Below, in pieces: positions 32,907 through 61,529 of a stretch of DNA of 64,000 nucleotides. The DNA comes from a virus. The notes under the pieces are model-generated. The model saw only the letters and a program-made list of their open reading frames with translations, was not told where the DNA came from and did no database searches. A program made the position numbers and the translations under genes. Location: the IMG/VR virus record IMGVR_UViG_3300042382_000102, positions 16,336 to 80,335 of that record; one strand, written 5' to 3'. Numbering within the stretch: position 1 is the first letter of the stretch; every line of letters begins with the position of its first letter.

Positions 32907-34252
32907 TCTGTTTCTTCCAATGTTACTGGCAAATGTTCAGGGTGATAAGTCTTACCATTAAATTCTACAGGCTCTGCATCATCTATTAAATACCAAGTAA
33001 GTGATGCGTAACAGCAATACACTTCATGTCTTGGATAAGCAATACCATCATGCAAGAGCACCCAGTCTTTTTCTGGACCTACATCAGATTTTAATACACG
33101 GATATCGTCACTATTAGTCTCATATGTATCCTCTTCTTTAGCATACTCACCATCTTGTACTTCTACTAAATCATGATGATCTAAATACTCCATATGGTAG
33201 TATTCGCCTTCAAATGTAATCACATTATCTTCATGAATACGCTCTTTATAGAGAGTACTATCTACATAAGCCATTACATAATAGTTATCTGCACAATCAT
33301 AGCAAACATCATCATCTTCGTATACAGATCTCATATCATCTGAATTATAGTACTCATCGCAGCAATTACAATGACAATCAGCACTATTGCAAGGAGCGCC
33401 ATCAGTATTAGTACATTCAAAGTCACCATCTTCACAAATAACTAAGCTATGTGGAACCCCTTTATAAGTCATTCCACTTCTTTTACTTACTCGCTGATGT
33501 TCTCCGTCAATATACGGAGCTAAGAATTCACTATTGTTACTAAAATACTTTAATGGAGCGCCATCAGGCCATCCATCATAGTGCATGTAACCACTCTCTT
33601 TTAACCAATACTCTAATGCCTCATCAGCATAACTATAATCAGTCCCTCTCTTATAAGTACGAACAAAACATTTTTGCTTATCATCATCAGAATGCCATAC
33701 TAAAGCACGACCATTAATTGACTTTGTATCAGGGTCAAGTCTAACTGCAGCTTTCCAACCTAGTTCAGGTGCATAAACCCGATAAGGATGTAAATAATCA
33801 GGGCAATATTCATCATGTCCAGGTGTATAGGCAGAATCCCAAGTCATGCAAGAACGTGGACCTTTCTGAACACTTAGAATAATACCATCTGAGTCTTCCC
33901 AGATCTCAAATGTATCATTACGACATTTAGTAGCAAAGTCACGGATCTCATGATCTTTTAACTGTGGAAACATTCTACGGATATAACGTCCGAAGGTAGT
34001 AACAGTTTGACGATCACTTTCGCCTGAACGCTCATCACGAGTAAATGCAACATTACTAGCATCCTTAATAGACATATGAGGATACTCTAATGCTAACAAG
34101 CGATAATTTTCAGGAACATGTTTCTTCATGATATCTTTAATCACAGGGTGAAACTCATAAGCCCTCTGTTCTCTTGCATGCCAATCTCTTGACATACGGA
34201 GAATCTCTAATACTACAGGAAATTTAACTTCTAACTCTTGAATTGTGATCAT
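32903..34252 (-). CDS. Large Cys/Asp-rich protein of unknown function
   Basis: 449 residues. Around residues 285-345 it has a cluster of Cys residues (CTNTDGAPCNSADCHCNCCD, then DDVCYDCAD) that could form zinc ribbons, surrounded by very acidic, Tyr-rich sequence. The N-terminal 200 residues look globular. It shares a 4-base overlap with the peptidase gene, so the two may act together. A similar protein type exists in some large marine phages; no function known. Confidence 0.68.
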   Translation of the reverse strand: MITIQELEVKFPVVLEILRMSRDWHAREQRAYEFHPVIKDIMKKHVPENYRLLALEYPHMSIKDASNVAFTRDERSGESDRQTVTTFGRYIRRMFPQLKDHEIRDFATKCRNDTFEIWEDSDGIILSVQKGPRSCMTWDSAYTPGHDEYCPDYLHPYRVYAPELGWKAAVRLDPDTKSINGRALVWHSDDDKQKCFVRTYKRGTDYSYADEALEYWLKESGYMHYDGWPDGAPLKYFSNNSEFLAPYIDGEHQRVSKRSGMTYKGVPHSLVICEDGDFECTNTDGAPCNSADCHCNCCDEYYNSDDMRSVYEDDDVCYDCADNYYVMAYVDSTLYKERIHEDNVITFEGEYYHMEYLDHHDLVEVQDGEYAKEEDTYETNSDDIRVLKSDVGPEKDWVLLHDGIAYPRHEVYCCYASLTWYLIDDAEPVEFNGKTYHPEHLPVTLEETE

Positions 34253-34577
34253 TTATTTCTCTTGAAAGATTTAAAATATAATTTGCTTTCTGGAAAACCC
34301 AAGGGTTTCTGTGTGGCAGATGTGCTCCAGTAGCTCCATCCCAATCTCTAAATTCCCAATCGTAAAAATCAATTCTTAAACAACTTGGGTGTTCTTCTTG
34401 TAGTTTTTGTAATTCATCAGCCCATGCTTGCCACTGATGATCAGAGATTATGCTTTCATTTAGCTCATAATAGATACACGAATGTATTAACATTTGTGAT
34501 CTTCGCCTTCTTACTAATTCTACTAATTCGCTTGAACAAATAGTTTTAGTAGTCGTTATTTTCTTAGGCCGTGGCAT
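34224..34577 (-). CDS. LigA-related small protein
   Basis: 117 residues. RRRSQMLIHSCIYYELNESI followed by ISDHQWQAWADELQKLQEEHP resembles the N-terminal helical (Ia-like) region of NAD-dependent ligases, as in phage proteins labelled DNA ligase LigA-related. No adenylation lysine motif is present, so it is not a ligase by itself. Confidence 0.62.
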   Translation of the reverse strand: MPRPKKITTTKTICSSELVELVRRRRSQMLIHSCIYYELNESIISDHQWQAWADELQKLQEEHPSCLRIDFYDWEFRDWDGATGAHLPHRNPWVFQKANYILNLSREINDHNSRVRS

Positions 34578-36670: not shown

Positions 36671-36902
36671 CTGTGTAACTACGTTTAACACCTAACTTAT
36701 CCGCTTTCTTTTGTAGATATACTGCAAAGAATTTTACAAGATCTTCTGAATCTTCAAAAGAAGATCCTTCTACAATAGATAAAGAAACTCTCTCAAAATG
36801 ATTCATAATTTCTTCTGGATTTGTTACACTTAATGCTGATAAAGTATGGTTAACACCTTGATCAACCATATTTGTAAGTTTAATTTTATCTGATGGAGTC
36901 AT
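36657..36902 (-). CDS. Small unknown protein coupled to nrdB
   Basis: 81 residues from MTPSDKIKLTNMVDQGVNHT; the ATG overlaps the nrdB stop as TAATG, so translation is coupled. Helical, mildly acidic. No family recognised. Confidence 0.6.
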   Translation of the reverse strand: MTPSDKIKLTNMVDQGVNHTLSALSVTNPEEIMNHFERVSLSIVEGSSFEDSEDLVKFFAVYLQKKADKLGVKRSYTDEQK

Positions 36903-37885
36903 TACCAATCCCAGTTACCATTCATACCATTAACACTATACTCAGTAACACGCTTCTCAAAGAAGTTATCGTGAGATACACCTGATAAAACCCAGTCAAG
37001 CCAAGTTAAAGGATTTTCTTTTACTCGGAATACTGGTTTTAAACCAAGCTGAATAAGGCGACGATCTGTGATAAATCTAATATAATTTCTTACATCTTCT
37101 TTAGTTAATCCTTCAATTTTATTACCAGTAAAGGCAAGATCAATAAACCTATCTTCTAACTCAACAGCTTCTTTAGCCATTTGATAAATTTTAGATTTAA
37201 ACTCATCATTGATAATACGAGGATGTTCTTCACAATACTTACGGAATAATGCCGCACCGCCCTCTACATGTACTGTTTCATCTCGAATAGACCATTCAAC
37301 TACAGTTCCCATACCTTTCATTTTACCGAAACGTTGGAAGTTAAGTAACATAACAAATGAAGCGAATAAAGCAACACCTTCATTAAATACACCTTTGGCT
37401 AAAGTTAAAGCTACGCCAGAATGTGTTCCTGTATCATTAGATTGCATAAAGTCAATCTTATCTGCCATCTCTTTGTATTCTAAAAATCGATGATATTCTT
37501 CATCAGGCAAACCTAGGGTATCATTCAATAGTGCATAAGCTCTTTGATGAGTACCTTCACGACCAGCAAAGGAACCTAGCATAACACGAACTTCATTGTT
37601 CTTAAATTTAGGTATTAAATAGTCATAATAGTTTTGACCTACTTGAACATCACCTTGAGTAAATAATCTTAAGATATGAGTAATAAACTCTTTTTCCTGA
37701 TCATTTAACTTTAGTTTCCAATCTGATACATCTTCAGATAAATCAGCTTCATCTTCAGTCCAATGAATTTCTTCATGTTTCTTTGTTAAATCTACAGCCC
37801 AATCATGAAAGAAAGGTTTATAAGTTTTATTAAAAGTGGTTAATGTTGATGCAGGAATATTATCCTTCACAAGCTTTGCATTCAT
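36902..37885 (-). CDS. nrdB: Ribonucleotide reductase class I beta subunit
   Basis: 327 residues. Ferritin-like di-iron ligands are visible in the expected order: E in W.EDEADLSEDV.DW context, EGTHQRAY, NEGVALFASF and DETVHVEGG. It makes the tyrosyl (or metal-based) radical for NrdA. The C-terminus NGMNGNWDW would bind NrdA. Start overlaps the nrdA end by 26 bases. Confidence 0.94.
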   Translation of the reverse strand: MNAKLVKDNIPASTLTTFNKTYKPFFHDWAVDLTKKHEEIHWTEDEADLSEDVSDWKLKLNDQEKEFITHILRLFTQGDVQVGQNYYDYLIPKFKNNEVRVMLGSFAGREGTHQRAYALLNDTLGLPDEEYHRFLEYKEMADKIDFMQSNDTGTHSGVALTLAKGVFNEGVALFASFVMLLNFQRFGKMKGMGTVVEWSIRDETVHVEGGAALFRKYCEEHPRIINDEFKSKIYQMAKEAVELEDRFIDLAFTGNKIEGLTKEDVRNYIRFITDRRLIQLGLKPVFRVKENPLTWLDWVLSGVSHDNFFEKRVTEYSVNGMNGNWDW

Positions 37886-39863
37886 TGTCTTCTGCCTCTA
37901 CTGCGTTTGTTAATGTTTGGAAATGAGCATATAGTTTATCAAATCCACCGATATACTCTCCGTCTAAATAAATTTGTGGTAACGATCTAACATCATCACG
38001 ACCAGTAACTTCAGCCGCTGTTTTGCCTAAAGCTACAATATCAATATAGTCAAATGGAATACTCTTTGAATTTAACAAAGCTTTAGCCATTTCACAATTT
38101 GGACAATTTGGTTTACCATATATGATTGTTGTCTTCTCATATTTTAATTTATCTTCTTTAACTTTTTCTGAGACATTTTCAGCACGAACTTTAGCTTCTG
38201 TACGGAGATAATACAAACCTTTCAACCCAGATTCCCAAGCTAAAATATGTGCATCTTTAACATATTTCTTTTCTGCTCCTGCAGGGAAAAATAAGTTAAC
38301 AGATTGGCCTTGACAAACATATTTTTGTCTATCTGAAGCATGTTTAATAACCCAACTTTGATCTAACTCAAAACTAGTTTTAAACACATCTTTTATACTA
38401 TCTTCTAAGAATGGCAAATGTTGCACAGATCCACCACTAGTAATAATATTAGCCCATACTTCATTTGTATTATGTTGAATCTTATCTAAATACTTTTCAA
38501 GATATTTGTTTTTAACTAAGAAAGATCCTGCACGAGTACGATGTGTATATGCATTAGCCTTATTAGGTTCAATACTAGGAGAAGTACTTAACAGAATACC
38601 AGAAGAAGCATTAGGGGCTACTGCTAGTAAATGTGAATGCCTTACCATTACTGGAGACATATCTGGAGCAGGTCCACGACTTTCAGCTAAAGCGCCAGAG
38701 ATCTCTTTTGCTTGATTTTTAATATAATCAAATATTTCAATGTTTAGCTTGGATGCATCGTTACTTTCAAAAGGTATCATTCTACTCTGTAACAAGTTAT
38801 GAAAACCCATTGCTCCAACACCAATAGATCTTTCTTGAGTAGCGCTATATACTGCCCTACTAAGACTGTCTGGAGCATTCTCAATAAAATATTCTAGTAC
38901 GTTGTCAAGCATTGTTACTAAATCTTTGACCATTGATGTATGTTTCCATTGGTCATAGTGTTCTAGATTAACAGAGCTTAAACAACATACTGCTGTACGA
39001 TCTTCATTCGTAGGTAAATGAATTTCATTACAGAGGTTGCTACCATGTACTTTTAAACCTTTTTCCTTTAATTGAATAGGTAATGCGTCATTAACAGTAT
39101 CAATGAAGTTAAGGTAAGGCTCACCTGTACGGAAGCGAGTTTCCAATAACTTGATAAATACTTTTCTAGCATCAAGGGATTCGCCTGTTGGTCCTTTCTT
39201 TGGATCAACAAGCTCATATGTTCTACCTTCTTTGACAGCTTCCATGAAATTATCAGTGATATTAACAGCGTTATGTAAGTTAAGACATTTACGATTGTTA
39301 TCACCTGTGGGAACACGAATACTAATAAATTCAAGAATATCAGGATGATCAATATCGAGATATGCAGCATAAGAGCCCTTTCTAGTTTTACCCTGCCTAT
39401 AAGCAGTCATATCAGCATCAATTGTGCTTAAGAAAGGTATAGGCCCAGGAGCAATGTCAGATACACTACGGATGTCAGACCAATGACCTCCGACCCCTCC
39501 GCCCATGACGGATAACCAACGAATTTCAGAACTATGATCAATAAGACCAGAGACAGTATCAGGAACATAAGTTAAAAAGCAAGAGATTGGCATTCCTTTA
39601 CCTTTACCATTAATATCGGGAGCATTCGATAATACAGGTGAGGCAAACATAAACCATTTGTTTGAGATATAGTCATACAGTCTTTGAGCTAACTCTAAAT
39701 CTGTTTGACCTTTAAATGTGCTCCAAGCACGACAAGCTCTAGCATAAACTTCCTGTGGAGATTTTTCATTATCTTTTGCATAGAACTCTAGTACCATGTC
39801 AAAGGCATAATCTGTTAAAAGTTTATCTTTATCTAAATCAATTTCAATATCGTAGTATTTCAT
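37860..39863 (-). CDS. nrdA: Ribonucleotide reductase class I alpha subunit with inserted glutaredoxin domain
   Basis: 667 residues. NrdA core: SCFLTYVPDTVSGLIDHSSE, LSVMGGGVGGHWSDIRSV, NLCNEIHLPT with TAVCCLSSVNLEHYD, and APNASSGILLSTSPSIEPN. From about residue 577 to 651 there is a glutaredoxin domain (TTIIYGKPNCPNCEMAKALL, active site C587-P-N-C590; SLPQIYLDGEYIGGFD). The protein then ends in ECKACEG, the Cys pair (C662, C665) of the usual NrdA C-terminal redox tail. The glutaredoxin thus sits between the catalytic core and the tail it would reduce, giving a self-contained reductant. No ATP-cone is evident at the N-terminus. Confidence 0.94.
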   Translation of the reverse strand: MKYYDIEIDLDKDKLLTDYAFDMVLEFYAKDNEKSPQEVYARACRAWSTFKGQTDLELAQRLYDYISNKWFMFASPVLSNAPDINGKGKGMPISCFLTYVPDTVSGLIDHSSEIRWLSVMGGGVGGHWSDIRSVSDIAPGPIPFLSTIDADMTAYRQGKTRKGSYAAYLDIDHPDILEFISIRVPTGDNNRKCLNLHNAVNITDNFMEAVKEGRTYELVDPKKGPTGESLDARKVFIKLLETRFRTGEPYLNFIDTVNDALPIQLKEKGLKVHGSNLCNEIHLPTNEDRTAVCCLSSVNLEHYDQWKHTSMVKDLVTMLDNVLEYFIENAPDSLSRAVYSATQERSIGVGAMGFHNLLQSRMIPFESNDASKLNIEIFDYIKNQAKEISGALAESRGPAPDMSPVMVRHSHLLAVAPNASSGILLSTSPSIEPNKANAYTHRTRAGSFLVKNKYLEKYLDKIQHNTNEVWANIITSGGSVQHLPFLEDSIKDVFKTSFELDQSWVIKHASDRQKYVCQGQSVNLFFPAGAEKKYVKDAHILAWESGLKGLYYLRTEAKVRAENVSEKVKEDKLKYEKTTIIYGKPNCPNCEMAKALLNSKSIPFDYIDIVALGKTAAEVTGRDDVRSLPQIYLDGEYIGGFDKLYAHFQTLTNAVEAEDNECKACEG

Positions 39864-43006: not shown

Positions 43007-43191
43007 ACTGGGTAGGTTACTTTCTCAAAGCCATATCTCTTAACTCGAGCTAATAGTTTCTTGCCAACTTTATTACGAACTTTATACTTAATAATTGTAG
43101 GACGATCTACAAAGCTAAGATATAAATACTTATCGCCACGAGGATAAGTATATGTTGCCGATGGAACTCTGTATACTAATGATTTTTTCAT
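43003..43191 (-). CDS. Small basic unknown protein
   Basis: 62 residues, very basic and beta-rich (MKKSLVYRVPSATYTYPRGD; IIKYKVRNKVGKKLLARVKR). Possibly nucleic-acid binding. ATGA overlaps with both neighbours. Confidence 0.58.
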   Translation of the reverse strand: MKKSLVYRVPSATYTYPRGDKYLYLSFVDRPTIIKYKVRNKVGKKLLARVKRYGFEKVTYPV

Positions 43192-43601
43192 TTTTGTTGT
43201 ACTCTTATATTACTGTGAATTAATGTTAAAATACCTGAATCAGTTTTATATCTGTCTGAAAATATTACTCTTTCAACGCCAGATTGGATTAGTAGCAGTG
43301 AACAATTGTCACAAGGAGCAGTTGTCACATATACTGTTGATCCTTTTAAACTCAAACCTTCTGCAGCAGCCTTAGAGACTAAATTTGCTTCAGCATGAAT
43401 TACATAGGATAATGTTTTATTATAATCATCTTCACATTTATTAGGAAAACCTGTGGGAGTTCCATTAAATCCGAAGCTGAGAATATTATTATTTTTTACT
43501 GCTATAGCACCAACCTTACGCTTTTCAGCATGAGACATTAGTGCTATTCTTTTAGCAAGATCTAAATACAGGGAATCGTAGCGATCTTCTTTTGTAACCA
43601 T
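43188..43601 (-). CDS. dCMP deaminase
   Basis: 137 residues. Zinc site HAEAN (His plus catalytic Glu) and APCDNCSLLLIQSGV (two Cys); substrate region KVGAIAVKNNNILSFGFNGTPTGFPN is typical of deoxycytidylate deaminases. It supplies dUMP for dTTP synthesis. No phage thymidylate synthase is visible in this window. Confidence 0.9.
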   Translation of the reverse strand: MVTKEDRYDSLYLDLAKRIALMSHAEKRKVGAIAVKNNNILSFGFNGTPTGFPNKCEDDYNKTLSYVIHAEANLVSKAAAEGLSLKGSTVYVTTAPCDNCSLLLIQSGVERVIFSDRYKTDSGILTLIHSNIRVQQK

Positions 43602-47323: not shown

Positions 47324-47586
47324 TAGTATACATCTCCATTTTCTTGAATCTTTTTATCTTCATAAGGTGCAGCTATTCTACGATAAAACTCAATCTTAGC
47401 ACCTTCTAGAGCACCTACAATGTCGTTAATTGCTTGGTAGTTACCTTTATCTGTACGATTAAAATAATCTCGTACAATAGAAGTAATAACAAAGTTTAAC
47501 TCACCAGGGGTAGTGCATAAATCACCAACCTCAGCTACACTCTTTGTATGTAAGAACTGTTTAAAGTCTTGTCGAATATAAGGCAT
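47323..47586 (-). CDS. DUF6899-like protein
   Basis: 87 residues. MPYIRQDFKQFL..., PGELNFVITSIV, INDIVGALEGAKIEFYRR and the ending YEDKKIQENGDVY match a small family common in phages. Role unknown. Single-base overlaps with both neighbours indicate translational coupling. Confidence 0.72.
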   Translation of the reverse strand: MPYIRQDFKQFLHTKSVAEVGDLCTTPGELNFVITSIVRDYFNRTDKGNYQAINDIVGALEGAKIEFYRRIAAPYEDKKIQENGDVY

Positions 47587-47999
47587 TAATCTAAATACTC
47601 CGTAATAATAGTGTCACAAGCTTTGTCTACTGTAGATCTCCACTCTGTAACTAGAGACTCAAAGAAAGGGTGGATAGTAGAAGCATTAGCTTTAAATGCA
47701 ACTACTGGTTTTCGTAATACATAAGAAGCATAAAAAACTTCCATTGCAGTACCGTGTTTAGCAATTGTAGGATTATCTAAATTAACAAGGATTAAATCTG
47801 ATTCTTGAATATCACGAAGATCTAACTCAAATATACGTTTCATATATTTAGGTTGAAATTCATGAACTCTACGAGTGGGATCTAATACTTTCTGATCTGC
47901 TTGTAATAGTAAATCAGTAGCAATTGTTCTCCATCCTTTTGCATCTTCAATAGAAACATGTTCCATTGGACCTGCTAAATATACTGTTCTTTGTTTCAT
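47586..47999 (-). CDS. Nucleoside 2-deoxyribosyltransferase-like protein
   Basis: 137 residues. YLAGPMEH at the start, LDLRDIQESDLILVNLDNPT and HGTAMEVFYAS with the likely nucleophile Glu match the nucleoside 2-deoxyribosyltransferase / DNPH family, which exchanges or hydrolyses the base of deoxynucleosides or nucleotides. It fits the nucleotide-scavenging genes around it. Confidence 0.8.
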   Translation of the reverse strand: MKQRTVYLAGPMEHVSIEDAKGWRTIATDLLLQADQKVLDPTRRVHEFQPKYMKRIFELDLRDIQESDLILVNLDNPTIAKHGTAMEVFYASYVLRKPVVAFKANASTIHPFFESLVTEWRSTVDKACDTIITEYLD

Positions 48000-49632: not shown

Positions 49633-51801
49633 TTAACAAAAAGCATAATCAGAATACACAATCTGACCGACATCTAGATTACCCCTTTCAGGAATAAGGT
49701 CTTTACAGTCGAGTTCAGCAAGCAATTTTTCAAGAGGTTTACTTTTGTAAAACTCAACAAACTGTTCTCTTACTCTATAAAACAAATCATCCATTCGTCC
49801 TGGTAAAGTACCAAAAGAATCATGAACAACAGTCATTTCATAAGGAGCAGATACAACAGTCATTGTTAGGTGAGCAGCATCAAAGCTATGAACAATGTTT
49901 GGTGCAGCACCTGTTCTTTGGGAATCTTTATTAATAGTTGTTTCTTCCCAAGTTTGAAGTTGAATCTTTAATTCTTCTTCTCCGTACTTCAACTTAGTAC
50001 GTACAATAGATGGCTTACGATATGCCTGTACAACTGGGAAGTTAGTTACAGGTGTAGTCCATTTTAGAAACACTTCTTTTTCATTAGATCTTTGTGCAAG
50101 ATCCTGAAACATACGCAACATAGTGGCTGGTCCTTTGAGTTTCTCATAACAAGTCTCAAATACCAGATCACCTAATAGCGCACCCCAGAGGTGTTCCTTG
50201 TCACGAAGATACTCAGACATATCACGAGTGTCATCAATAATTTGTTGACCCATGCCGTATGCAGTACCACCGTAACCGAGTGTCATTACATTTCTCTTTA
50301 CTACTTTCCGTTGATCTTTAGGGTTATCGATTTTAAGCCAGTAAACAGGAAATAATTTTTCTCGTATTGCTCTATTTTGATTACGCCATTCTTGGGCAGC
50401 AGCATAGGCTAATGCTTTTTGCTCTGTCTTTTCAGGTGCATCAAAATAAGCTTTTTGTAGTTCTTTAGCTTTACCATAAACAGAGTCAAACTGACCTCTT
50501 TCTTCAGGTGTTAGCTTGTCTGCCATCTCTTGTAAATGTTCCCATACATATTTTGCAATATACATGTAGACATCACCAGGAAGCTCTTGTGGAACTAAAT
50601 TTACTAATGGAGCAATATCTTCATCCTGAGACATAGCTACTAGATGTTGAACTCCGTTATTAGAACCATCAATGTAAACAGGAAGTGAACATTCATATTC
50701 TTCTAACTTATTTCCTTCCATTAGCCACTCCTTAATCTTCTTTAACTCATAACAAGCAGCTAAGAAAGAAAATGGGGCATCAGTATCAATCCAACCTTGG
50801 TTAATAGTTGGCTTCTCTGCATAAGATAAAAATAAATTAATATTCTCATCTACAAACTCTGCTCTTTGTTTTAGTGTAACTTTGTCATTACCGAAAGAGT
50901 TAGAGGTATGTACTTTTAACCAGAATAAACCATTTTCTCCAAGTGGTGCTGGTTGATCTAATAAGAGTAAACCTTTAGCATTATCACTAGATTGCTCATG
51001 CAAGAATGCTGTATTCACATATACACGACCACGAAAATCGAAGTTATACATATGATAAAAGGTATTATCTAAATGGTTTGAAGCTAGTTGTTCAATAGCC
51101 TCAGCTTCAATCAGCAGAGATTTCTTTTTCTCTTCATCAATTTCAGAATGTAATTTAAATGGACTAACTGAATTTTCCTTATGAAGAAAATGTTGATAAA
51201 CTTTAAATACATCTTTGTTAATGCGCCATCCTGTAGCTTGTAATTTATTTAGAACATTGTAAAGTATTTCTTTATCATTATTCTTAAATTGTGCTAATGC
51301 TGTAGAGTGACCTTTCTTAATAATAGGAACACCTAAATTATTATGAGCAGAATCCCATGGGCATGGGGCTTCTCTCATGGGAAAGATATCAACTTTAGTT
51401 TGATCAATTAGACTCCATAAGTCTTTAATTGATTTCCAATCTTTAACTTGAAAGAAATAAGCTTGGTACTTACTCTTCTTGCCATTCTTGTATGTATACT
51501 TTAATTTAAAAGATAAAACATTACATTCAATATAAGCAATACACACAAACCAGCCGACTTGTGCATCAAAGATTGTGTCATTAGGTAATTCAAGAGTTTG
51601 TCGAATTCTCCTGCCAATAGTAGCAATAATGTCTACTAAAGTACCTTGTCTCTCAAGTCCACGTAATACATGAGGATATGAGATGTCTATTAGTGTCTTT
51701 GGATCTACATCTTTCAAGTAGTGAGTATAGATATTTCTATCTGAACGCAACGTAGCTTGACGTAGCTTAATATCATTAACTAATTTATCTAGAACGGTCA
51801 T
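49633..51801 (-). CDS. T7-like single-subunit RNA polymerase
   Basis: 722 residues, shorter than T7 (883), mostly through a reduced N-terminal domain. Motifs: NFDFRGRVY (D255), motif A DGSNNGVQH with D378, motif B R498, K502, Y510-G511 (KVVKRNVMTLGYG), motif C H660-D661 (VVHDSFGT) and the C-terminal foot ending DYAFC, like T7 FAFA. It should read the T3/SP6-like promoters found in this window. It lies between the early small-gene region and the first of those promoters. Confidence 0.96.
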   Translation of the reverse strand: MTVLDKLVNDIKLRQATLRSDRNIYTHYLKDVDPKTLIDISYPHVLRGLERQGTLVDIIATIGRRIRQTLELPNDTIFDAQVGWFVCIAYIECNVLSFKLKYTYKNGKKSKYQAYFFQVKDWKSIKDLWSLIDQTKVDIFPMREAPCPWDSAHNNLGVPIIKKGHSTALAQFKNNDKEILYNVLNKLQATGWRINKDVFKVYQHFLHKENSVSPFKLHSEIDEEKKKSLLIEAEAIEQLASNHLDNTFYHMYNFDFRGRVYVNTAFLHEQSSDNAKGLLLLDQPAPLGENGLFWLKVHTSNSFGNDKVTLKQRAEFVDENINLFLSYAEKPTINQGWIDTDAPFSFLAACYELKKIKEWLMEGNKLEEYECSLPVYIDGSNNGVQHLVAMSQDEDIAPLVNLVPQELPGDVYMYIAKYVWEHLQEMADKLTPEERGQFDSVYGKAKELQKAYFDAPEKTEQKALAYAAAQEWRNQNRAIREKLFPVYWLKIDNPKDQRKVVKRNVMTLGYGGTAYGMGQQIIDDTRDMSEYLRDKEHLWGALLGDLVFETCYEKLKGPATMLRMFQDLAQRSNEKEVFLKWTTPVTNFPVVQAYRKPSIVRTKLKYGEEELKIQLQTWEETTINKDSQRTGAAPNIVHSFDAAHLTMTVVSAPYEMTVVHDSFGTLPGRMDDLFYRVREQFVEFYKSKPLEKLLAELDCKDLIPERGNLDVGQIVYSDYAFC

Positions 51802-52224: not shown

Positions 52225-52359
52225 TTAAATAAAAGGTTTTGGAAAGGGACCACTGAATAAAATTAAAAAGATATAAGCAATTAGTACTATAAAAAATAAT
52301 GGTCTAGCCACTACAAATAGTACAAACATAATAAGCAAAAATATTACAAAGAGGCTCAT
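52225..52359 (-). CDS. Very hydrophobic small protein
   Basis: 44 residues, MSLFVIFLLIMFVLFVVARP then LFFIVLIAYIFLILFSGPFP; almost entirely membrane. TAATG overlap with the next gene upstream. Function unknown. Confidence 0.55.
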   Translation of the reverse strand: MSLFVIFLLIMFVLFVVARPLFFIVLIAYIFLILFSGPFPKPFI

Positions 52360-52592
52360 TACTTCCTCATTGTATTAACATGGCCTACTAGCTTAAATCT
52401 TTGGTTTATGTGAGCTAACGGATTAACTTTCCATAAATCTAGTTCTTGACCAACTTTATCAAAGAAGTCTAAACTATGTGGTTCATAACGAACTTTGATG
52501 TAATTAACGATCTCTTTGCTGACTTGGTAGACATAACCTTCCTCATCAGCAATTCGAACACTAGAATACACAGGTGGACATTTAGTACACAT
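52359..52592 (-). CDS. Small unknown protein
   Basis: 77 residues from MCTKCPPVYSSVRIADEEGY (GGAG six bases upstream). One CxxC pair at the N-terminus. Function unknown. Confidence 0.55.
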   Translation of the reverse strand: MCTKCPPVYSSVRIADEEGYVYQVSKEIVNYIKVRYEPHSLDFFDKVGQELDLWKVNPLAHINQRFKLVGHVNTMRK

Positions 52593-52593
52593 T

Positions 52594-52848
52594 TTAAACT
52601 CCAAGTTTTTTATCTACAAAAACTAAATCTTCAATTGCTTTAAAGAGCCTACTAAAGTCTTCAGCAGATTCTGTAATAACCGAAGCTACAGTTTCTCCAA
52701 CCATATATGCTGATTTAACATCATACAATGAAGGAGAAACAACTTTCTGTAAGAAGTCATCATAGACAGTTACTTGAACTGAATCAAATAAATTCTCTTG
52801 AATAGCTTCAATAGTATAGTCACCTGATTTTAGAGTCAATCTTGGCAT
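52594..52848 (-). CDS. Small unknown protein
   Basis: 84 residues, beta-rich N-terminus (PRLTLKSGDYTIEAIQENLF) and helical C-terminus. No motif recognised. Confidence 0.55.
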   Translation of the reverse strand: MPRLTLKSGDYTIEAIQENLFDSVQVTVYDDFLQKVVSPSLYDVKSAYMVGETVASVITESAEDFSRLFKAIEDLVFVDKKLGV

Positions 52849-52850
52849 TT

Positions 52851-53144
52851 TTAATCCTCAATTTTCTGATCATATATAGAAGTGAATTCAATAATAGAAC
52901 CATCGAGTTCAACTTCAGTACACATTCTTTCAATTAAAAACTTAGAGTTACTTGTTGCATAGATTGCAGGTATACCTTTAGTATCATTTGAGAATATATA
53001 AGTTAATCCAAACTCTTCTAACGATTCAATTACCTCTTGTGCAGTAACTCCAAAGTTATCCCCATAAAGTGGATTCAACAATAAGTACTTAGGCATAGAT
53101 TTTTCCTTATCAAGCTCTTTAATTCGATTTGAATTGCTACTCAT
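52851..53144 (-). CDS. Small unknown protein
   Basis: 97 residues. NPLYGDNFGVTAQEVIESLE and YIFSNDTKGIPAIYATSNSK suggest an alpha/beta fold. No family recognised. Confidence 0.52.
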   Translation of the reverse strand: MSSNSNRIKELDKEKSMPKYLLLNPLYGDNFGVTAQEVIESLEEFGLTYIFSNDTKGIPAIYATSNSKFLIERMCTEVELDGSIIEFTSIYDQKIED

Positions 53145-53491: not shown

Positions 53492-53511
53492 GGCCACCCT
53501 TTCGAGTGACC
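53492..53511 (-). terminator. Terminator downstream of the bilin genes
   Basis: Arms GGCCACCC (53492-53499) and GAGTGACC (53504-53511) form 8 pairs closed by GAAA on the minus strand, followed by TTTTTTATC. On the plus strand it is followed by GTTTTT, so it can act in both directions. It closes the heme oxygenase - bilin reductase segment. Confidence 0.8.
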
Positions 53512-53603: not shown

Positions 53604-54290
53604 TTATACCTCTGGAAAAAGACATTCTTGAATAAACTTGTTTACTGTTGCTTCATCGAAGCCTAATGATTGCATAACTCTAGGCGTGTGAGGATTTTTC
53701 TTTTGATTTTGACAATACCAATTTTGTTGTTCAGTAAAATTAAAATTTTCTACTTTATACTCATAACTATGTTGAGCATTTAGTATATGTAGCGTGTCTA
53801 AATATTTTTCTAATGATCTCTTAGACAAATCTAATACTTCATTTAGTTCAAACTCAGAGTTAATATTACCAGCAGCTACCATTGATGGACTAAAAATATT
53901 CCTAGCCCATTCGGGTAAGTCTCTTGGTTTACTCCACTCATAATCTTTTACTTCATTAGCAAACCACTTAACTAGCTCATGATCTTTATTTCCTGATGGA
54001 CTAAAGTCATGGAATGCTCCAGTAACTTTTGTTGGACCAGCTATTAAATCAAAACCATAGATAGGTGCATCTGAATAAATCTTTGGAAATACACAAAGAT
54101 GCATCATGAGAAGTTTCTTAGTATCCCTTGCATCTACAACATCTAAATGTGCTCTACGAATATTACCACTAATATAGATTTTATTTTCCCAAGGAAATGG
54201 ATGAGTCTCTTCAGATAAGAAAGTTCTTGACTCTAATATATCTTTAAAGTCTTGTGTATGCTTCTCTAGTTTACTGAATATTATACTCAT
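53604..54290 (-). CDS. pcyX: Ferredoxin-dependent bilin reductase (PcyX/PebS type)
   Basis: 228 residues. FPWENKIYISGNIRRAHLDV, LMMHLCVFPKIYSDAPIYGFDLIAGP and GAFHDFSPSG are the core of ferredoxin-dependent bilin reductases. The PcyA catalytic Asp105 appears as D81 and His88 as H64, while the PcyA Glu76 position is Asp (D50 in HLD). The Glu-to-Asp change argues against plain PcyA chemistry and fits the phage PcyX class, which makes phycoerythrobilin from biliverdin by four-electron reduction. The start overlaps the heme oxygenase end by 20 bases. The PcyX subtype is inferred, not proven. Confidence 0.88.
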   Translation of the reverse strand: MSIIFSKLEKHTQDFKDILESRTFLSEETHPFPWENKIYISGNIRRAHLDVVDARDTKKLLMMHLCVFPKIYSDAPIYGFDLIAGPTKVTGAFHDFSPSGNKDHELVKWFANEVKDYEWSKPRDLPEWARNIFSPSMVAAGNINSEFELNEVLDLSKRSLEKYLDTLHILNAQHSYEYKVENFNFTEQQNWYCQNQKKNPHTPRVMQSLGFDEATVNKFIQECLFPEV

Positions 54291-54807
54291 CAGCTAACTC
54301 ATCAAATAGTTGTGTTGCAAAGGCAAAGACTATTTTGGCTTCATCAGCTAAATCGTCTGTAAGCTTTTCTCTTACAGTAGCAATAAGCTCTGCTCGGTTA
54401 TAAAATTCATACATAGTACCATTTCCTGGAACTAGTTTCTTTAACATTTGACCACCATACATATCACCAAAATGGCGTACATATAAGTGAGCAAGTAGTT
54501 GTTCTTTAGTACAGGTCTTTACATATTCACAATAGTTCATTGTACTCATATGTAAATGTTGTCTTGACTTGTCTCTATGCAGATCTCGTAGATCTTGTGC
54601 AATTTTTGCTGTACGTTTAATAGGTCCAATATCATCTAATAAACCTAATACCTCAGCAGTTTGTTCTAATGCAGCATAACAATGTTTTTGATTAAACAAA
54701 AAGTCACCATACTCTTCTTTTGTAATTTGTCCTGCAAATAACTTTTTTACAAAAGGATGATTCTCTGCACTATCATGTGCATCTTTAATTAATTCTCGTA
54801 ATGCCAT
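54271..54807 (-). CDS. ho1: Heme oxygenase
   Basis: 178 residues of the HO-1 fold: proximal heme ligand H11 in LIKDAHDSAENHPF, distal helix G-D-M-Y-G-G-Q at 114-120 (RHFGDMYGGQML), and LYVRHFGD preceding it. It opens heme to biliverdin IX alpha, releasing CO and iron, and provides the substrate for the overlapping bilin reductase gene. Shorter than plant or cyanobacterial HO1 (about 240), like other phage forms. A terminator hairpin lies just upstream. Confidence 0.93.
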   Translation of the reverse strand: MALRELIKDAHDSAENHPFVKKLFAGQITKEEYGDFLFNQKHCYAALEQTAEVLGLLDDIGPIKRTAKIAQDLRDLHRDKSRQHLHMSTMNYCEYVKTCTKEQLLAHLYVRHFGDMYGGQMLKKLVPGNGTMYEFYNRAELIATVREKLTDDLADEAKIVFAFATQLFDELADEYNIQ

Positions 54808-54827: not shown

Positions 54828-54850
54828 GGGAACCGAAGTTCCCCGTTTTT
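54828..54850 (-). terminator. Terminator between fibre chaperone and heme oxygenase genes
   Basis: Arms GGGAAC (54828-54833) and GTTCCC (54838-54843) enclose a TTCG tetraloop on the minus strand (CGAA on plus), extended by flanking pairs, and followed by TGTTTTATT. On the plus strand GTTTTT follows. It separates the receptor-binding module from the bilin genes. Confidence 0.8.
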
Positions 54851-54855
54851 AATAC

Positions 54856-55224
54856 TTACTTAGATGGTTCTGTTGGAACCGTTACTTCTGTTGGATGTGT
54901 TGCATCGGCAAAAGTTTCAGGCATATCTCTTAATGCCTGACGATACTCTGCCCATTCTGCTTTCTTTTCTGCTGATAGTGGTGTATCAGGTAACTGTGTC
55001 CAGTCTGATTTAGTTAATAGAAAATCTCTTAAACCACGAATACCAACTTGAACTTGTTCAATAGTGATTTCTGGTAGGTTTTCTTCAGGCATATACTCAA
55101 TATAGCCTAATTCTGTAAAACCTACTGTATCTTTTAAACCTGTTCTTTCAAGAACTGATTGATAGGACATAGGTCCTTCTAGTACAACCCCATCTACAAC
55201 ATAATTAAATAAAACATTATCCAT
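54856..55224 (-). CDS. Tail fibre assembly chaperone-like protein
   Basis: 122 residues from MDNVLFNYVVDGV; ATG overlaps the adhesin stop as TAATG with AGGAG upstream. C-terminal RDFLLTKSDWTQLPDTPLSA then WAEYRQALRDM is a motif common in phage fibre-assembly proteins. It follows the adhesin gene, the usual site of a fibre chaperone. A related segment occurs in the 16991-17227 protein. Confidence 0.72.
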   Translation of the reverse strand: MDNVLFNYVVDGVVLEGPMSYQSVLERTGLKDTVGFTELGYIEYMPEENLPEITIEQVQVGIRGLRDFLLTKSDWTQLPDTPLSAEKKAEWAEYRQALRDMPETFADATHPTEVTVPTEPSK

Positions 55225-56078
55225 TACATATCTCCTGTACCTGTTGATGGGAATGATCGGTTTGGTCCCCAAATAATGCGAACACACCCTCTTCCACCAC
55301 GATTAATCTGGTAACCCATATATTGATTACTACCAGTGCCACCAGCACCGCCTCCATATAAACCACCATCTCTACGATGGAAACCATAACTAATCCATGG
55401 ATTTTCACCCATTAATCCATCTTCACCTCCAGAGCCACCTCTTCCAGGTCCTCCAGAACTTCCACCTGAGCCAGAAGAGCCTTGACCAAAAGGGCCAGTA
55501 CCCCCACCTGATGGGCCGCCATAAGTAGAGCTGTAAGAACCACCACCTCCAGCACCTCCACCATTACCTGCAGAGTCCTGAGTTCCACCATTACCAGTGT
55601 AACCTCCAGCACCACCTCCACCATATTGGGCACCGCTTCCTCCATTACCACCGCCTGCGCCAGTCCAGGTACCTCCGCTAGTACCTGATGCTCCGCCTCC
55701 TCTAACAGTACCAGTGTCAATAAAATAGCTATCAGTACCACTATATTGATAACCGTAGCCATCACCCCCTTTACCAACTACTACAGTATAGTTTTGGCCA
55801 GGTACTACAGGAATATTATTTTTCCAACCTAATCCTCCACCACCACCAGCTTGGGATGACCATTGTGAACCTTGAGTAGAAGAACCTCCACCAATACAAA
55901 CAACAGATACACTGGTTACTCCTGGAGGACAAGTCCAAGTATAAGTTCCACTACCAAAACCATAAAAGGCTTGTCCAATTGGGGTAGAAGAACTAGAGGA
56001 AGAGGAAGAAGAAGAACTACTTGTAGCCCCTCCTACTACCCCTAGTCTATTATCAATTGTAGTTAAAAATCTACTCAT
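55224..56078 (-). CDS. Polyglycine-rich receptor-binding adhesin
   Basis: 284 residues. A run of 12 Ser at residues 20-31, a strand region TYTWTCPPGVTSVSVVCIGGG, then long glycine-rich stretches (about 75-265) consistent with the polyglycine-helix sandwich of phage tip adhesins such as T-even gp38. It ends RGGRGCVRIIWGPNRSFPS, a common end in marine phage Gly-rich fibre proteins. Likely the distal receptor-binding protein with variable loops between Gly motifs. Confidence 0.8.
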   Translation of the reverse strand: MSRFLTTIDNRLGVVGGATSSSSSSSSSSSSTPIGQAFYGFGSGTYTWTCPPGVTSVSVVCIGGGSSTQGSQWSSQAGGGGGLGWKNNIPVVPGQNYTVVVGKGGDGYGYQYSGTDSYFIDTGTVRGGGASGTSGGTWTGAGGGNGGSGAQYGGGGAGGYTGNGGTQDSAGNGGGAGGGGSYSSTYGGPSGGGTGPFGQGSSGSGGSSGGPGRGGSGGEDGLMGENPWISYGFHRRDGGLYGGGAGGTGSNQYMGYQINRGGRGCVRIIWGPNRSFPSTGTGDM

Positions 56079-57593: not shown

Positions 57594-60500
57594 TCAAAAT
57601 GTGCTAAAGAATGCTACTTTAGCCACGGATGGTGCTGATGCAACAACTGCATTCACCGAGTTTGTTAACGATGTTGAGATAGTATCTACATAAGTTTTAA
57701 CTGCGTATTCTGTTGGTACAGCAAGATTACTTGCTCCACTCAATGTTGAATCACTACTAAACTCATTAATAGATTCACCAATTTGAGCACCAATAGAACC
57801 AAGGCGTAAACTTGTAAGACCACTTAAATCGAATGCAGAGGCATCTAATGTAGCTCGTCCTGTAGCTTGATCAACTCGGAAATAGTTACCAATTCTAAAA
57901 TTACCATCTTGGTCTGTAGATACATAGTATACACGACCTGGTAGGTTTTCAATAACCTCATTACCTTGAGATGGAGACTGTGTAGGTACTCCTGGGTAAT
58001 TAGTTGTAGTTTTACCACCAGTGCCAATACTTAAGAAGTCATGACCAGTTAATCGAACTTGAGAATAATTATAACGGATATTAAAATGTTGACCATAATA
58101 TGAATCAGCCGTATCTAATTTTTCTTGGCTTAAAGTAATTGTAGCGGTGCCATTTATAGCGTCCCAACCACTAACTGAAGTAATAATATAACTACGTGTA
58201 TCTGCACCAGTGTTAAGTGGTTCAGTAATATCTGGATTATCTATTGGAGAGTAAGTTGGACCTTCTACAAATTCAATAGATCCACCTGCAATAGGGCTTG
58301 CGGATAAACCACCAAGAACTAATGCAAAGCCATATTGGCCTCTATGAGCATCTGTGCCAACTAAAGTTACAGTAGTTCCGCTATTAGCAATAATTGTAGA
58401 ACCGTCTAAGAAAGGATAAATTGTTTCACCAGTAAATCTATCATATGCAGTAGTACTATGAGCAACTATAGAAATTGAACCACCTGTAGCAGTACCATTA
58501 GATTTGTAGTATAATGTAGTACCTGCTAATGCAGCATCTACTTGTAATCTAACTTCTCTATTAGTTGCAGCAGCAAATCCAGCAATATACGCTGCATTAT
58601 TAGCTACTTGTGTATTATTTAACCAATAGGTTACTCCTGTTGTATATGGCGTAACACCACTTACAGTAGTAGTAAAATATAAGGCTTCTCCTACGTTAGT
58701 TGTATCATTTTGTTCAAATACATATTGTCTAGTTGTATAAGCTGTGAAGCTTAGTGATTTAGTTCCATTAAGGTAAAAACCTTTATTTAAACCAACCGTC
58801 TTAGTGTTTAATTTATACGTATGGCCTGTAGTACCTAGCTTAAGATCACTAATAACTAATCTATGGTAATTTGTACCTAAATTTGTTTGGATATTAGTAA
58901 TAGTAGCTTTAGGTTTAGCAATAGTGATTGTACCAGTAGTTAAAGTAGTACCTACCAATGTTCTAGTCGCAGTGCCACCAGAAATATAGTTACCCATTGT
59001 TGTACCATCTACAGGTATTGTTCTTGCTACATCTGTATATAAGCTTACACGATCGGCATCTAATACAGTAACGTAATAGCTATTTCCATTTAGTTGTGTT
59101 TGACCTAAAATACCTGTGATATCAGAAATTCTTTCACCACTAGTAAATCCATGTGAGTTAATTTGTAAAATAACAGGATTGCTACGTAATGCATCTGTAA
59201 TAGTTAGAGTAGCAATACCCCAACCACCAATAGAACGATTATCAAAGTAATTTGTTAAATCAAAATTAGAGCATAGCTTAAAGGTATTAGGAGTAATTAC
59301 ATCTGCATACCATGTTTTTCTTATACCTTGTGCTTGATCACCTAGAATAGGTTGCCATACTGATTCTGCAATACCTGTAATACTAACTGGTTGACCATTG
59401 TATAAACCGTGGTTGGTACTTGTAGTTATTACAGCTTGAGCCGCAATACTCATTCCAGTTATTGTAAGATTGGTTGGTTCTGTTTGGCTTATAGTATTAC
59501 CAACTGAGAAGCCTGCAGAAGTAGATAAGGTGCTTGGATCATAGGTTAATGTATCACCGTACATAGTACCTGACAAAGCATTTTCATTTACATCAAAACC
59601 ACTAGCCATAGAACCATAAGTACCATAACTATTATTACAGTTTAATGCACGGATTTTACCACCACCAGTAGCGGCTAATCCAAAATCACAGTAATATGTA
59701 AAGCAGCTTACAATTTCAGAAAGACCTCTGTCTTTTACCCAAAAACCTACACCACCATCATGTACTTGAGTAAATGTGTGGAATACCATTGAGCCGCCTG
59801 AACCAACAGGTCCAATACTACCATCAATAATCGCACCTACACCACCAGTAGAGAATGCACTAGATTCTTTAACATAAGGTGATTTAGTAATCATTGAAGC
59901 AGGGTTTAATCTGCAGTATACACCTTTAATAGTAGCTGTATTTAGATCTTCAGGATTACTTGTACTTTTGACAAAGCCAGTTAATCCCTTCATTACCAAA
60001 CCTTCAATCATCACTCCACTAGAGAGGAAAAACATTGTAGTTTGATTATTAGGTGTTATACCATCATCACTTAAACCAGCTTTAGGTTGTATAATAGTAT
60101 TACGCTGCCCATCCCCAACAATTGTAACATTTTCAGGAACAATAATTGGAAGCTGCTCGTTATATACACCATCCTTAACAAAGATAGTTGCAGGACTACG
60201 ATTAGCCATATCTGCAGCAATATACTGACATGCATATTTTAAACTTGCAAACGCATAGTCTACACTTGCACCATGATTAACATCATCTGCACTAGACACT
60301 AAATCTTCAGCTACATAATAAATATTATCGTTAGCGTTAGCAAATTCCCAACTATAGTTTTGTCCATCGGGAGTTTGTAAATATCTGCCATTTTTATTTG
60401 TAGTAGCAGGTAATACATAAGCAGCACCAACAACGAATGTAGTCCATTTGTTTGCAGCTAAATCTTGGAAGAAATCAGCTGTTCCAACATGATCTGTTAA

Positions 60501-61529
60501 GCAAATGTAAGTACTGACTGAATTAGATACAATATCATCTTTTACATAAGAAGTACCTGTAGTCCAAGGACCCATATACCTAACACCAGAATTATATTTA
60601 ATCCATTTTGGTGTTGGAACTGCATTTAAAGCGTCATTAAAGTTGTTAGAAGAAGTATGGCTAATTGTACAAATAAATGTATTACCACCATAAACAACAA
60701 CATCATTAGCACCGTAGTAAGTTACACTAGTCCATGCACCTCTAACGTTTGTACCACTAAAATATAAAGACCAATTTTGTGTTTGGCTACTTGGTTCTGA
60801 GTTAGTATTATTGTTTAATGCTTGATAAATATTACCACCAAACCTTACTGTTTGACCAACAATATAATTTGAACCAGCATTCCAATTACCTTGGAAGTCA
60901 TTCCCTTTAGAATACAAATCCCAATATTGAGCAACTGTTGGAATATTACCTGTAGTCTCCACTTTACATTTGTATAAGTTTGCGCCATAAGCAACGATTG
61001 CACCAGGTACATAAGCAGTAGCTGCATTATAAATACCATCAGCACTAACGCCACTCACAAACTTTTGCCAGTAAGAAGCATTGGTAGGTAAATTATTTAC
61101 TGTATCTTGTGTAGCAATGTAAGCCTGTGCACCATAAGTTACAACGTCATTCTTTTGATAATTTGTTGTACCTACATAAGTACCTTCCCACTGAATACCA
61201 TCAGCAAATTGTGACCAATATGTTGCATTAGGTGGAATTTGATTTTGGCTATCTTTAATAGCAATATAAACCTTACCACCATAAGCAATACCATCACCAA
61301 CACGATATTGTGTTGAAGTACTGAAGTTACCTTTAAATTTAAAACCTTCTACCATTAGAACCCAGTATTGGATGTCTGTTGGTAAATTACCCATGGTTTT
61401 TACTGGGTTTGTATATACATATACGTTACCGCCATATTTGACGATATCATTTGTTTCGTAAGTGGTGGATGATAACCAGTCACCTGCGAAATGAAACCGT
61501 AGTTTCCCTAAATCAATTAATTGTGTCAT
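57594..61529 (-). CDS. Tailspike/fibre with repeated carbohydrate-binding-like modules and a beta-helix
   Basis: 1311 residues. Residues about 10-370 contain seven repeats of roughly 50 residues with G-x-W...T-x-Y...D-V-V-x-Y-G-G-x-x-Y-x...P...Y-W, like chitin/carbohydrate-binding type 5/12 modules. From about 405 to 700 comes a right-handed beta-helix/pectate-lyase-like region (ATIFVKDGVYNEQLPIIVPE, VTIVGDGQRNTIIQP). The rest is beta-rich and ends GASNLAVPTEYAVKTYVD, a trimer-forming fibre end. Likely binds or cleaves a surface polysaccharide. Confidence 0.83.
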   Translation of the reverse strand: MTQLIDLGKLRFHFAGDWLSSTTYETNDIVKYGGNVYVYTNPVKTMGNLPTDIQYWVLMVEGFKFKGNFSTSTQYRVGDGIAYGGKVYIAIKDSQNQIPPNATYWSQFADGIQWEGTYVGTTNYQKNDVVTYGAQAYIATQDTVNNLPTNASYWQKFVSGVSADGIYNAATAYVPGAIVAYGANLYKCKVETTGNIPTVAQYWDLYSKGNDFQGNWNAGSNYIVGQTVRFGGNIYQALNNNTNSEPSSQTQNWSLYFSGTNVRGAWTSVTYYGANDVVVYGGNTFICTISHTSSNNFNDALNAVPTPKWIKYNSGVRYMGPWTTGTSYVKDDIVSNSVSTYICLTDHVGTADFFQDLAANKWTTFVVGAAYVLPATTNKNGRYLQTPDGQNYSWEFANANDNIYYVAEDLVSSADDVNHGASVDYAFASLKYACQYIAADMANRSPATIFVKDGVYNEQLPIIVPENVTIVGDGQRNTIIQPKAGLSDDGITPNNQTTMFFLSSGVMIEGLVMKGLTGFVKSTSNPEDLNTATIKGVYCRLNPASMITKSPYVKESSAFSTGGVGAIIDGSIGPVGSGGSMVFHTFTQVHDGGVGFWVKDRGLSEIVSCFTYYCDFGLAATGGGKIRALNCNNSYGTYGSMASGFDVNENALSGTMYGDTLTYDPSTLSTSAGFSVGNTISQTEPTNLTITGMSIAAQAVITTSTNHGLYNGQPVSITGIAESVWQPILGDQAQGIRKTWYADVITPNTFKLCSNFDLTNYFDNRSIGGWGIATLTITDALRSNPVILQINSHGFTSGERISDITGILGQTQLNGNSYYVTVLDADRVSLYTDVARTIPVDGTTMGNYISGGTATRTLVGTTLTTGTITIAKPKATITNIQTNLGTNYHRLVISDLKLGTTGHTYKLNTKTVGLNKGFYLNGTKSLSFTAYTTRQYVFEQNDTTNVGEALYFTTTVSGVTPYTTGVTYWLNNTQVANNAAYIAGFAAATNREVRLQVDAALAGTTLYYKSNGTATGGSISIVAHSTTAYDRFTGETIYPFLDGSTIIANSGTTVTLVGTDAHRGQYGFALVLGGLSASPIAGGSIEFVEGPTYSPIDNPDITEPLNTGADTRSYIITSVSGWDAINGTATITLSQEKLDTADSYYGQHFNIRYNYSQVRLTGHDFLSIGTGGKTTTNYPGVPTQSPSQGNEVIENLPGRVYYVSTDQDGNFRIGNYFRVDQATGRATLDASAFDLSGLTSLRLGSIGAQIGESINEFSSDSTLSGASNLAVPTEYAVKTYVDTISTSLTNSVNAVVASAPSVAKVAFFSTF

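Follow-up and report, generated by a model that had tools for sequence, protein, structure and literature searches.

A probable heme oxygenase-PcyX gene pair beside the tail genes of a Naomviridae-like siphovirus

Cassettes joining a heme oxygenase (HO) to the bilin reductase PcyX were reportedly described by Ledermann in 2016 and 2018. In PMC11480375, HO-PcyX is found in phages of non-photosynthetic hosts, including Mosig-type myovirus pelagiphages, the phage PcyX cassettes are tied to T4-like pelagiphages via a neck-gene tree, and a hemO-pcyA/X-alaS cassette likewise brings HO and a PcyA/X-like reductase together in phages of non-phototrophs; its authors describe this co-occurrence as enigmatic, bringing up iron supply and sensor chromophores. 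PcyX is present in some phages and absent from cyanophages according to PMC13193486. Since PMC11480375 already reported HO-PcyX from phages whose hosts do not photosynthesize, an earlier note on the DNA analyzed here, which reported the pair in a phage without photosynthesis genes, implied more novelty than there is; the pair and the absence of such genes stand. The HO-PcyX pair itself is known; what is new is its occurrence on a siphovirus and several other backbones, the near-obligate pairing and the position in the tail module. No published description of a siphovirus or tail-module setting of PcyX was found in the openly accessible literature.

The window, the whole stretch of DNA analyzed, comprises 64,000 nucleotides and corresponds to positions 16336-80335 of a virus record of 80,335 bases. 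It contains the two overlapping open reading frames that the earlier note had assigned to an HO and a bilin reductase, an assignment borne out by coordinates and Pfam matches:

53604..54290, minus strand: predicted PcyX-type ferredoxin-dependent bilin reductase, 228 aa, with H64, D81 and a PcyX-type D50
54271..54807, minus strand: heme oxygenase, 178 aa, with H11 and G114-D115-M-Y-G118-G119-Q120
54271..54290, minus strand: overlap of the HO end and the PcyX start, 20 nt

We consider it probable (about 0.8), on sequence evidence, that the two genes make up a heme-catabolic unit of the known HO-PcyX kind and that the phage carrying them is a Naomviridae-like siphovirus. The 20-nt overlap likely couples their translation. 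HO matches PF01126 (Heme_oxygenase) and the reductase PF05996 (Fe_bilin_red), each with 77.6 bits, over Pfam cut-offs of 23 and 31, respectively; these matches and the dN/dS values given below exclude chance or mis-called reading frames. The His region and the GDLSGGQ motif of HO-1 align with H11 and GDMYGGQ of the window HO, and all 21 aligned phage HOs share H11, D115, G118, G119 and Q120. With the HO domain, the proximal His and the GDxxGG helix all present, the protein is predicted from its family to convert heme to biliverdin IXalpha.

Pelagibacter phage Mosig EXVC030M carries the same two genes, in the same order and likewise overlapping, and its reductase has the PcyX-type Asp; the reductases are 48.7% identical over 86% and the HOs just 32% identical. 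In Mosig, a T4-like myovirus, the pair is followed by neck genes and preceded by annotated 2OG-Fe(II) oxygenases, whereas the window phage is a siphovirus with a tail chaperone upstream and an RNA polymerase downstream. Ahead of the Mosig pair (L002, 1491-5906), four genes bear the annotation 2OG-Fe(II) oxygenase and another that of ferrochelatase, and a Fer2 ferredoxin match lies in the genome. The hemO-pcyA/X-alaS cassette, as presented in PMC11480375, differs from both in having AlaS (TIGR01821), which gave no match in the 80,335-base record nor in any of 51 records, many of them fragments, that comprise the window phage, Mosig and 49 of 64 IMG/VR relatives.

Comparison with solved structures sets the reductase apart from PcyA: it scores 203.5 bits against PcyX_EBK42635 (5OWG) versus 56.7 bits against the best PcyA, with 96 of 190 residues (50%) identical to 5OWG versus 49 of 183 to PcyA 2D1E. 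D50 aligns with the Asp of 5OWG, and both PcyA rows have Glu there; in place of PcyA Glu76, the window reductase thus carries the equivalent of PcyX Asp55, a residue number taken from PMC11480375, the equivalence being read off the 5OWG alignment. That paper describes Asp55 as a PcyX-specific catalytic residue and explains by its absence why the "PcyA/X" of phage CB_2 proved a true PcyA. H64 and D81 are invariant in all 54 aligned sequences, and 49 of these have Asp in the D50 column; of the other five, the two PcyA rows have Glu and three, from one odd group, have Lys. In a larger sample, Asp occupies this position in 156 of 157 aligned proteins, the window counted; the sole exception, L194, has Asn. 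The odd group (L073, 9884-10567; L129; L131) consists of divergent phage-like bilin reductases in which Lys replaces the Asp of PcyX and the Glu of PcyA, and its residues do not allow the product to be predicted. The residues named in the earlier note (H11, GDMYGGQ, H64, D81 and D50) are found as it gave them in the alignments to HO-1, PcyA and PcyX 5OWG.

A 56-row tree rooted on PebS places the window reductase, Mosig and 5OWG in one group of 34 rows (support 95/86), with PcyA outside; the tree leaves out L001 (the window's own entry), the partial proteins L048 and L065-L067, L126 (the same gene as L073) and proteins with identical cores. When PebS and L127 are additionally removed, the two PcyA rows split from all 52 others, 5OWG included, with a support of 100/99. 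Branching inside the PcyX part is weakly resolved, with 12 open forks per tree. The phylogeny suggested in the earlier note, run against PcyA, PcyX and PebS, hence places the reductase outside PcyA and with a characterized PcyX, and together with the bit scores and D50 it upholds the view of a bilin reductase of the phage phycoerythrobilin-synthase kind. The Asp at D50, the grouping with 5OWG and the published specificity of Asp55 point to a PcyX-type enzyme with phycoerythrobilin as predicted product; 5OWG, with the same Asp, is a metagenomic sequence whose product has been assayed in the literature. It is very unlikely that the enzyme functions as a PcyA and yields phycocyanobilin, its regiospecificity not following the sequence grouping. 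CB_2 provides a precedent in PMC11480375, and PMC13193486 stresses that phylogeny and product of such reductases correlate weakly, but CB_2 lacks the PcyX Asp, whereas the window reductase has it and groups with 5OWG. The cyanophage PcyA and PebS enzymes belong to the same superfamily and act on the same substrate; cyanophage PcyA is 25-29% identical to the window reductase, with Glu where the latter has Asp, and the window phage has no photosynthesis genes.

The record encodes a long tape-measure protein, a T7-type RNA polymerase, a DNA polymerase, a primase-helicase and a class I ribonucleotide reductase (RNR; genes at 36902-39863 of the window). Its terL is 60% identical to that of DSS3_PM1 (family Naomviridae), and a 1472-aa minor head protein is 48.8% identical over its full length to its DSS3_PM1 counterpart. 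With DSS3_PM1 and DSS3_VP1, the window phage has in common terL, head protein, RNA polymerase (50%) and tape-measure and tail genes; unlike it, these two gave no reductase match (E limit 1e-5), and the G+C content is 47.3% in DSS3_PM1 versus 35.5% in the window phage. Their host is Ruegeria pomeroyi DSS-3. Both phages are termed Roseophages in PMC12697855. On these matches, the window phage is a Naomviridae-like siphovirus related to the Roseophages DSS3_PM1/VP1, and its hosts are probably non-photosynthetic water bacteria. One backbone gene lies downstream of the pair and is present in sister phages with and without the cassette:

49633..51801, minus strand: T7-type RNA polymerase, 722 aa

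Several other genes of this backbone deserve mention. The minor head protein (12518-16936, minus strand) combines an N-terminal head-morphogenesis domain (phrog_241, residues 52-349) with C-terminal matches to single-subunit RNA polymerases (phrog_414 at 903-1158 and phrog_2051 near 1315-1440). Its DGRGR (926-930), D1069, YG (1145) and HDA (1386) resemble polymerase motifs. The protein may be a head-packaged, injected RNA polymerase, separate from the T7-type enzyme at 49633-51801; the predicted structure of part of it is poor (pLDDT 42). MuF-type fusions to effectors are described in PMC5512222, in whose accessible part a fusion of head protein and RNA polymerase was not found. Genes for dCMP deaminase-like (PF00383) and nucleoside deoxyribosyltransferase-like (PF05014) proteins are located at 43188-43601 and 47586-47999 (minus strand). 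As the DNA of DSS3 relatives is uracil-substituted according to PMC12697855, that of the window phage may be so too. An NAD-ligase N-terminal domain (PF22745) forms a small gene of its own (34224-34577), just ahead of a 449-aa protein without Pfam match (32903-34252, both minus strand), and the two are possibly a split DNA ligase.

A first IMG/VR scan returned 64 loci, with the reductase beside HO in all except L048 and L065, which both start inside the reductase; the longest reading frames of HO and PcyX overlap in 59 of 63 phage pairs, Mosig included. Alignment-based scans of IMG/VR gave at least 599 HO stretches and at least 584 PcyX-like stretches. Among the best 80 of the at least 599 HO loci, 78 have the reductase, and among the best 80 of the at least 584 PcyX loci, 77 have HO; these two sets, nearest to the query, overlap, and the missing partners correspond to contig ends. 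The pairing is thus near-obligate among the sampled loci. Between the window and five Naomviridae-like relatives, dN/dS ranges from 0.05 to 0.12 (reductase) and from 0.08 to 0.15 (HO), the closest pair differing by few substitutions; two distant relatives, close to saturation, gave 0.11-0.12 and 0.28-0.48, respectively. The pair is under purifying selection.

Phage groups were labeled by the downstream gene, which was possible for 54 of 65 loci including Mosig: T4-type neck (19), endolysin phrog_181 (14), RNA polymerase, i.e. Naomviridae-like (8), a 317-aa gene of unknown family (7) and NrdA (6), with 11 unlabeled. When the 51 records were searched with the terL of the window phage, G003 and G049 matched at 99-100% and six others, Mosig included, weakly (24-29% over part of the length); the remaining records, many of which are fragments, gave no match. 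Once PebS and L127 are removed, the reductase tree requires the T4-type label to change five times, and starred branches force at least three of these changes. The simplest reading is that the pair has been transferred between phage backbones.

In the window phage, the pair sits behind the tail genes, 48 nt separating the chaperone gene from the HO start:

54856..55287, minus strand: tail assembly chaperone (PF16778), directly upstream of HO
55224..56078, minus strand: glycine-rich tail-module protein (PF21722)
57594..61529, minus strand: long tail-fibre protein (phrog_9851)
52359..53144, minus strand: three small conserved genes (97, 84 and 81 aa) downstream of the cassette, retained by cassette-less sister phages

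Where the sequence ahead of HO extends for 3 kb or more (45 loci), genes within 3.5 kb include a tail-fibre chaperone in 20, a 2OG-Fe(II) oxygenase in 20, a carbamoyltransferase in 8 and an epimerase in 7, at least one of these being found in 37; the chaperone is absent at 25. When only distinct reductases are counted (n = 38), the numbers are 14 for the chaperone, 14 for the oxygenase, 8 for the carbamoyltransferase and 31 for any. A second, overlapping sample (n = 54) gave 18 for the chaperone, 11 and 9 for two oxygenase profiles and 10 for the carbamoyltransferase. As a background, drawn from related loci rather than from a random phage set, upstream positions held a chaperone for 6 of 78 window-phage genes and for 1 of 376 genes in cassette-less loci. 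Other phage groups (L014, L018, L027, L029, L040 and others) have carbamoyltransferase (PF02543/PF16861) and NAD-epimerase (PF01370) genes ahead of HO. The sister phages G050, G051 and G055, with terL 97% identical, keep the downstream small genes and the RNA polymerase and have another set of tail proteins; their locus gave no match to the chaperone, HO or reductase. More broadly, PF05996 matched none of the 16 terL relatives searched, several of which are fragments. In close sister phages, the pair is hence present or absent together with a variable tail-fibre module.

Two explanations bear on this setting. We see little chance that the pair is a functional part of the receptor-binding module, exchanged among unrelated phages along with genes for tail fibres, chaperones and 2OG-Fe(II) oxygenases and serving virion maturation, for instance by supplying Fe2+ to fibre-modifying oxygenases or bilin or iron to the tail: a gene-gain hot spot beside the tail fibre would account for the tail-module position, so that a functional link is not required. 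Iron-loaded tail fibres with HxH motifs, the "Ferrojan horse" idea of PMC11705849, are not supported, the six window tail-module proteins having no HxH; a slight HxH excess upstream of the cassette sits in carbamoyltransferases. That the pair is a neutral passenger of such a hot spot, without selected role, is highly improbable: carbamoyltransferase, epimerase and oxygenase genes do take the same place, and the pair is absent from sister phages, but dN/dS values of 0.05-0.15 in the close clade and the near-obligate pairing in the sampled loci oppose it.

The pair is bounded by two hairpins:

54828..54844, minus strand: terminator-like hairpin GGGGAAC-TTCG-GTTCCC with a T-rich tail, between chaperone and HO, 20 nt upstream of the HO start
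53492..53511, minus strand: terminator-like hairpin with a T-run, downstream of PcyX

Their stability z values are -3.7 (upstream) and -3.6 (downstream), with none of 200 shuffles as stable. All 10 Naomviridae-like relatives tested have the upstream hairpin, one base pair of which has changed from C-G to T-A in L009 and L010 through a compensatory double substitution, and all 7 with enough sequence have the downstream one; outside this group they are rare (2 of 49 and 3 of 50, respectively). With only about 20 nt between the upstream hairpin and the HO start, a promoter of its own is unlikely there, and the pair would be transcribed by read-through from the tail genes. A promoter scan found 21 sites, versus 30.4 in shuffles.

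No light-harvesting partner was detected. Profiles of the psbA type (PF00124), phycobiliprotein (PF00502) and phytochrome (PF00360) had no match in the 80,335-base record nor in any of the 51 records, which agrees with the earlier note, where no psbA, phycobiliprotein or other cyanophage marker had been seen and a search of the rest of the genome for bilin-binding proteins had been proposed. Pfam matches of 20 further window proteins revealed nothing bilin-related. It is barely credible that the pigment feeds phycobilisomes of a cyanobacterial host, as cyanophage PebS and PcyA are thought to do according to PMC11480375, the backbone being Roseophage-related (terL 60%) and psbA-type and phycobiliprotein matches missing from the 51 records; on terL and the lack of photosynthesis markers in these records, a cyanophage was rejected. 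The ferredoxin profile PF00111 had no match in the window phage record and matched only Mosig among the 51, and a phage-borne ferredoxin was rejected as electron donor. A scan of genome contigs outside phages returned three loci (L072, L073 and L074). Translated reading frames revealed T4-type phage genes on L072 and L073, and L074 is phage-like on reading its frames; all three are therefore treated as phage contigs inside MAGs, and a bacterial origin of the pair was discarded. Supply of the enzyme by the host was likewise discarded: PF05996 matched 3 of 385 alphaproteobacterial genomes, 2 of them above cut-off, one being a bin already met in the genome-contig scan.

A two-step pathway may be proposed for the pair. 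HO, as judged from its family, would open host heme to biliverdin IXalpha, Fe2+ and CO; PcyX, given its 50% identity to 5OWG and D50, would then use host ferredoxin to reduce biliverdin via 15,16-dihydrobiliverdin to phycoerythrobilin. Our leading guess, tentative and short of an even chance, is that host heme is broken down for iron during infection: Fe2+ would be freed for iron enzymes such as the phage class I RNR and, in many relatives, for neighboring 2OG-Fe(II) oxygenases as well, while PcyX would clear biliverdin and let HO turnover continue. We rank this role first on four grounds: Fe2+ is a product of HO, a class I RNR is encoded by the phage, 2OG-Fe(II) oxygenases adjoin the pair in many relatives and host iron-uptake genes rise in expression in one pelagiphage infection (PMC12753301), that phage itself having a 2OG-Fe(II) oxygenase. 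Against it, the window phage gave no match to 2OG-Fe(II) oxygenase profiles built from the relatives, and RNR is also present in DSS3_PM1, which gave no reductase match. Moreover, iron would already be released by HO on its own; the near-obligate presence of the reductase and the conservation of its Asp thus favor a need for the bilin, or at least fail to discriminate.

Two other roles may be considered. One, unlikely, is heme detoxification: toxic heme set free when host cytochromes break down late in infection would be removed by HO, with phycoerythrobilin as a radical-scavenging end product. It would explain the joint travel of HO and reductase (78/80 and 77/80 in the best 80 loci of each) and the structural-gene neighborhood. 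Bilins have antioxidant activity, but the locus holds no specific pointer to oxidative stress. It is distinctly unlikely that the pigment is a signal, with phycoerythrobilin altering or blinding a bilin-binding host receptor, for example a phytochrome, that it enters. The relatives of the window phage are Roseophages, conservation of D50 fits selection for one product, and of 295 genomes sampled for the family to which a Rhodobacteraceae bin belongs, PHY matched 50; however, the other 245 had no PHY match, a related cassette occurs in a SAR11 phage and PHY had no match in the 51 phage records.

The presence of the pair differs between sister phages with 97% identical terminases, which provides natural pairs with and without the cassette for asking what the bilin or the released iron does for a phage of a non-photosynthetic host.
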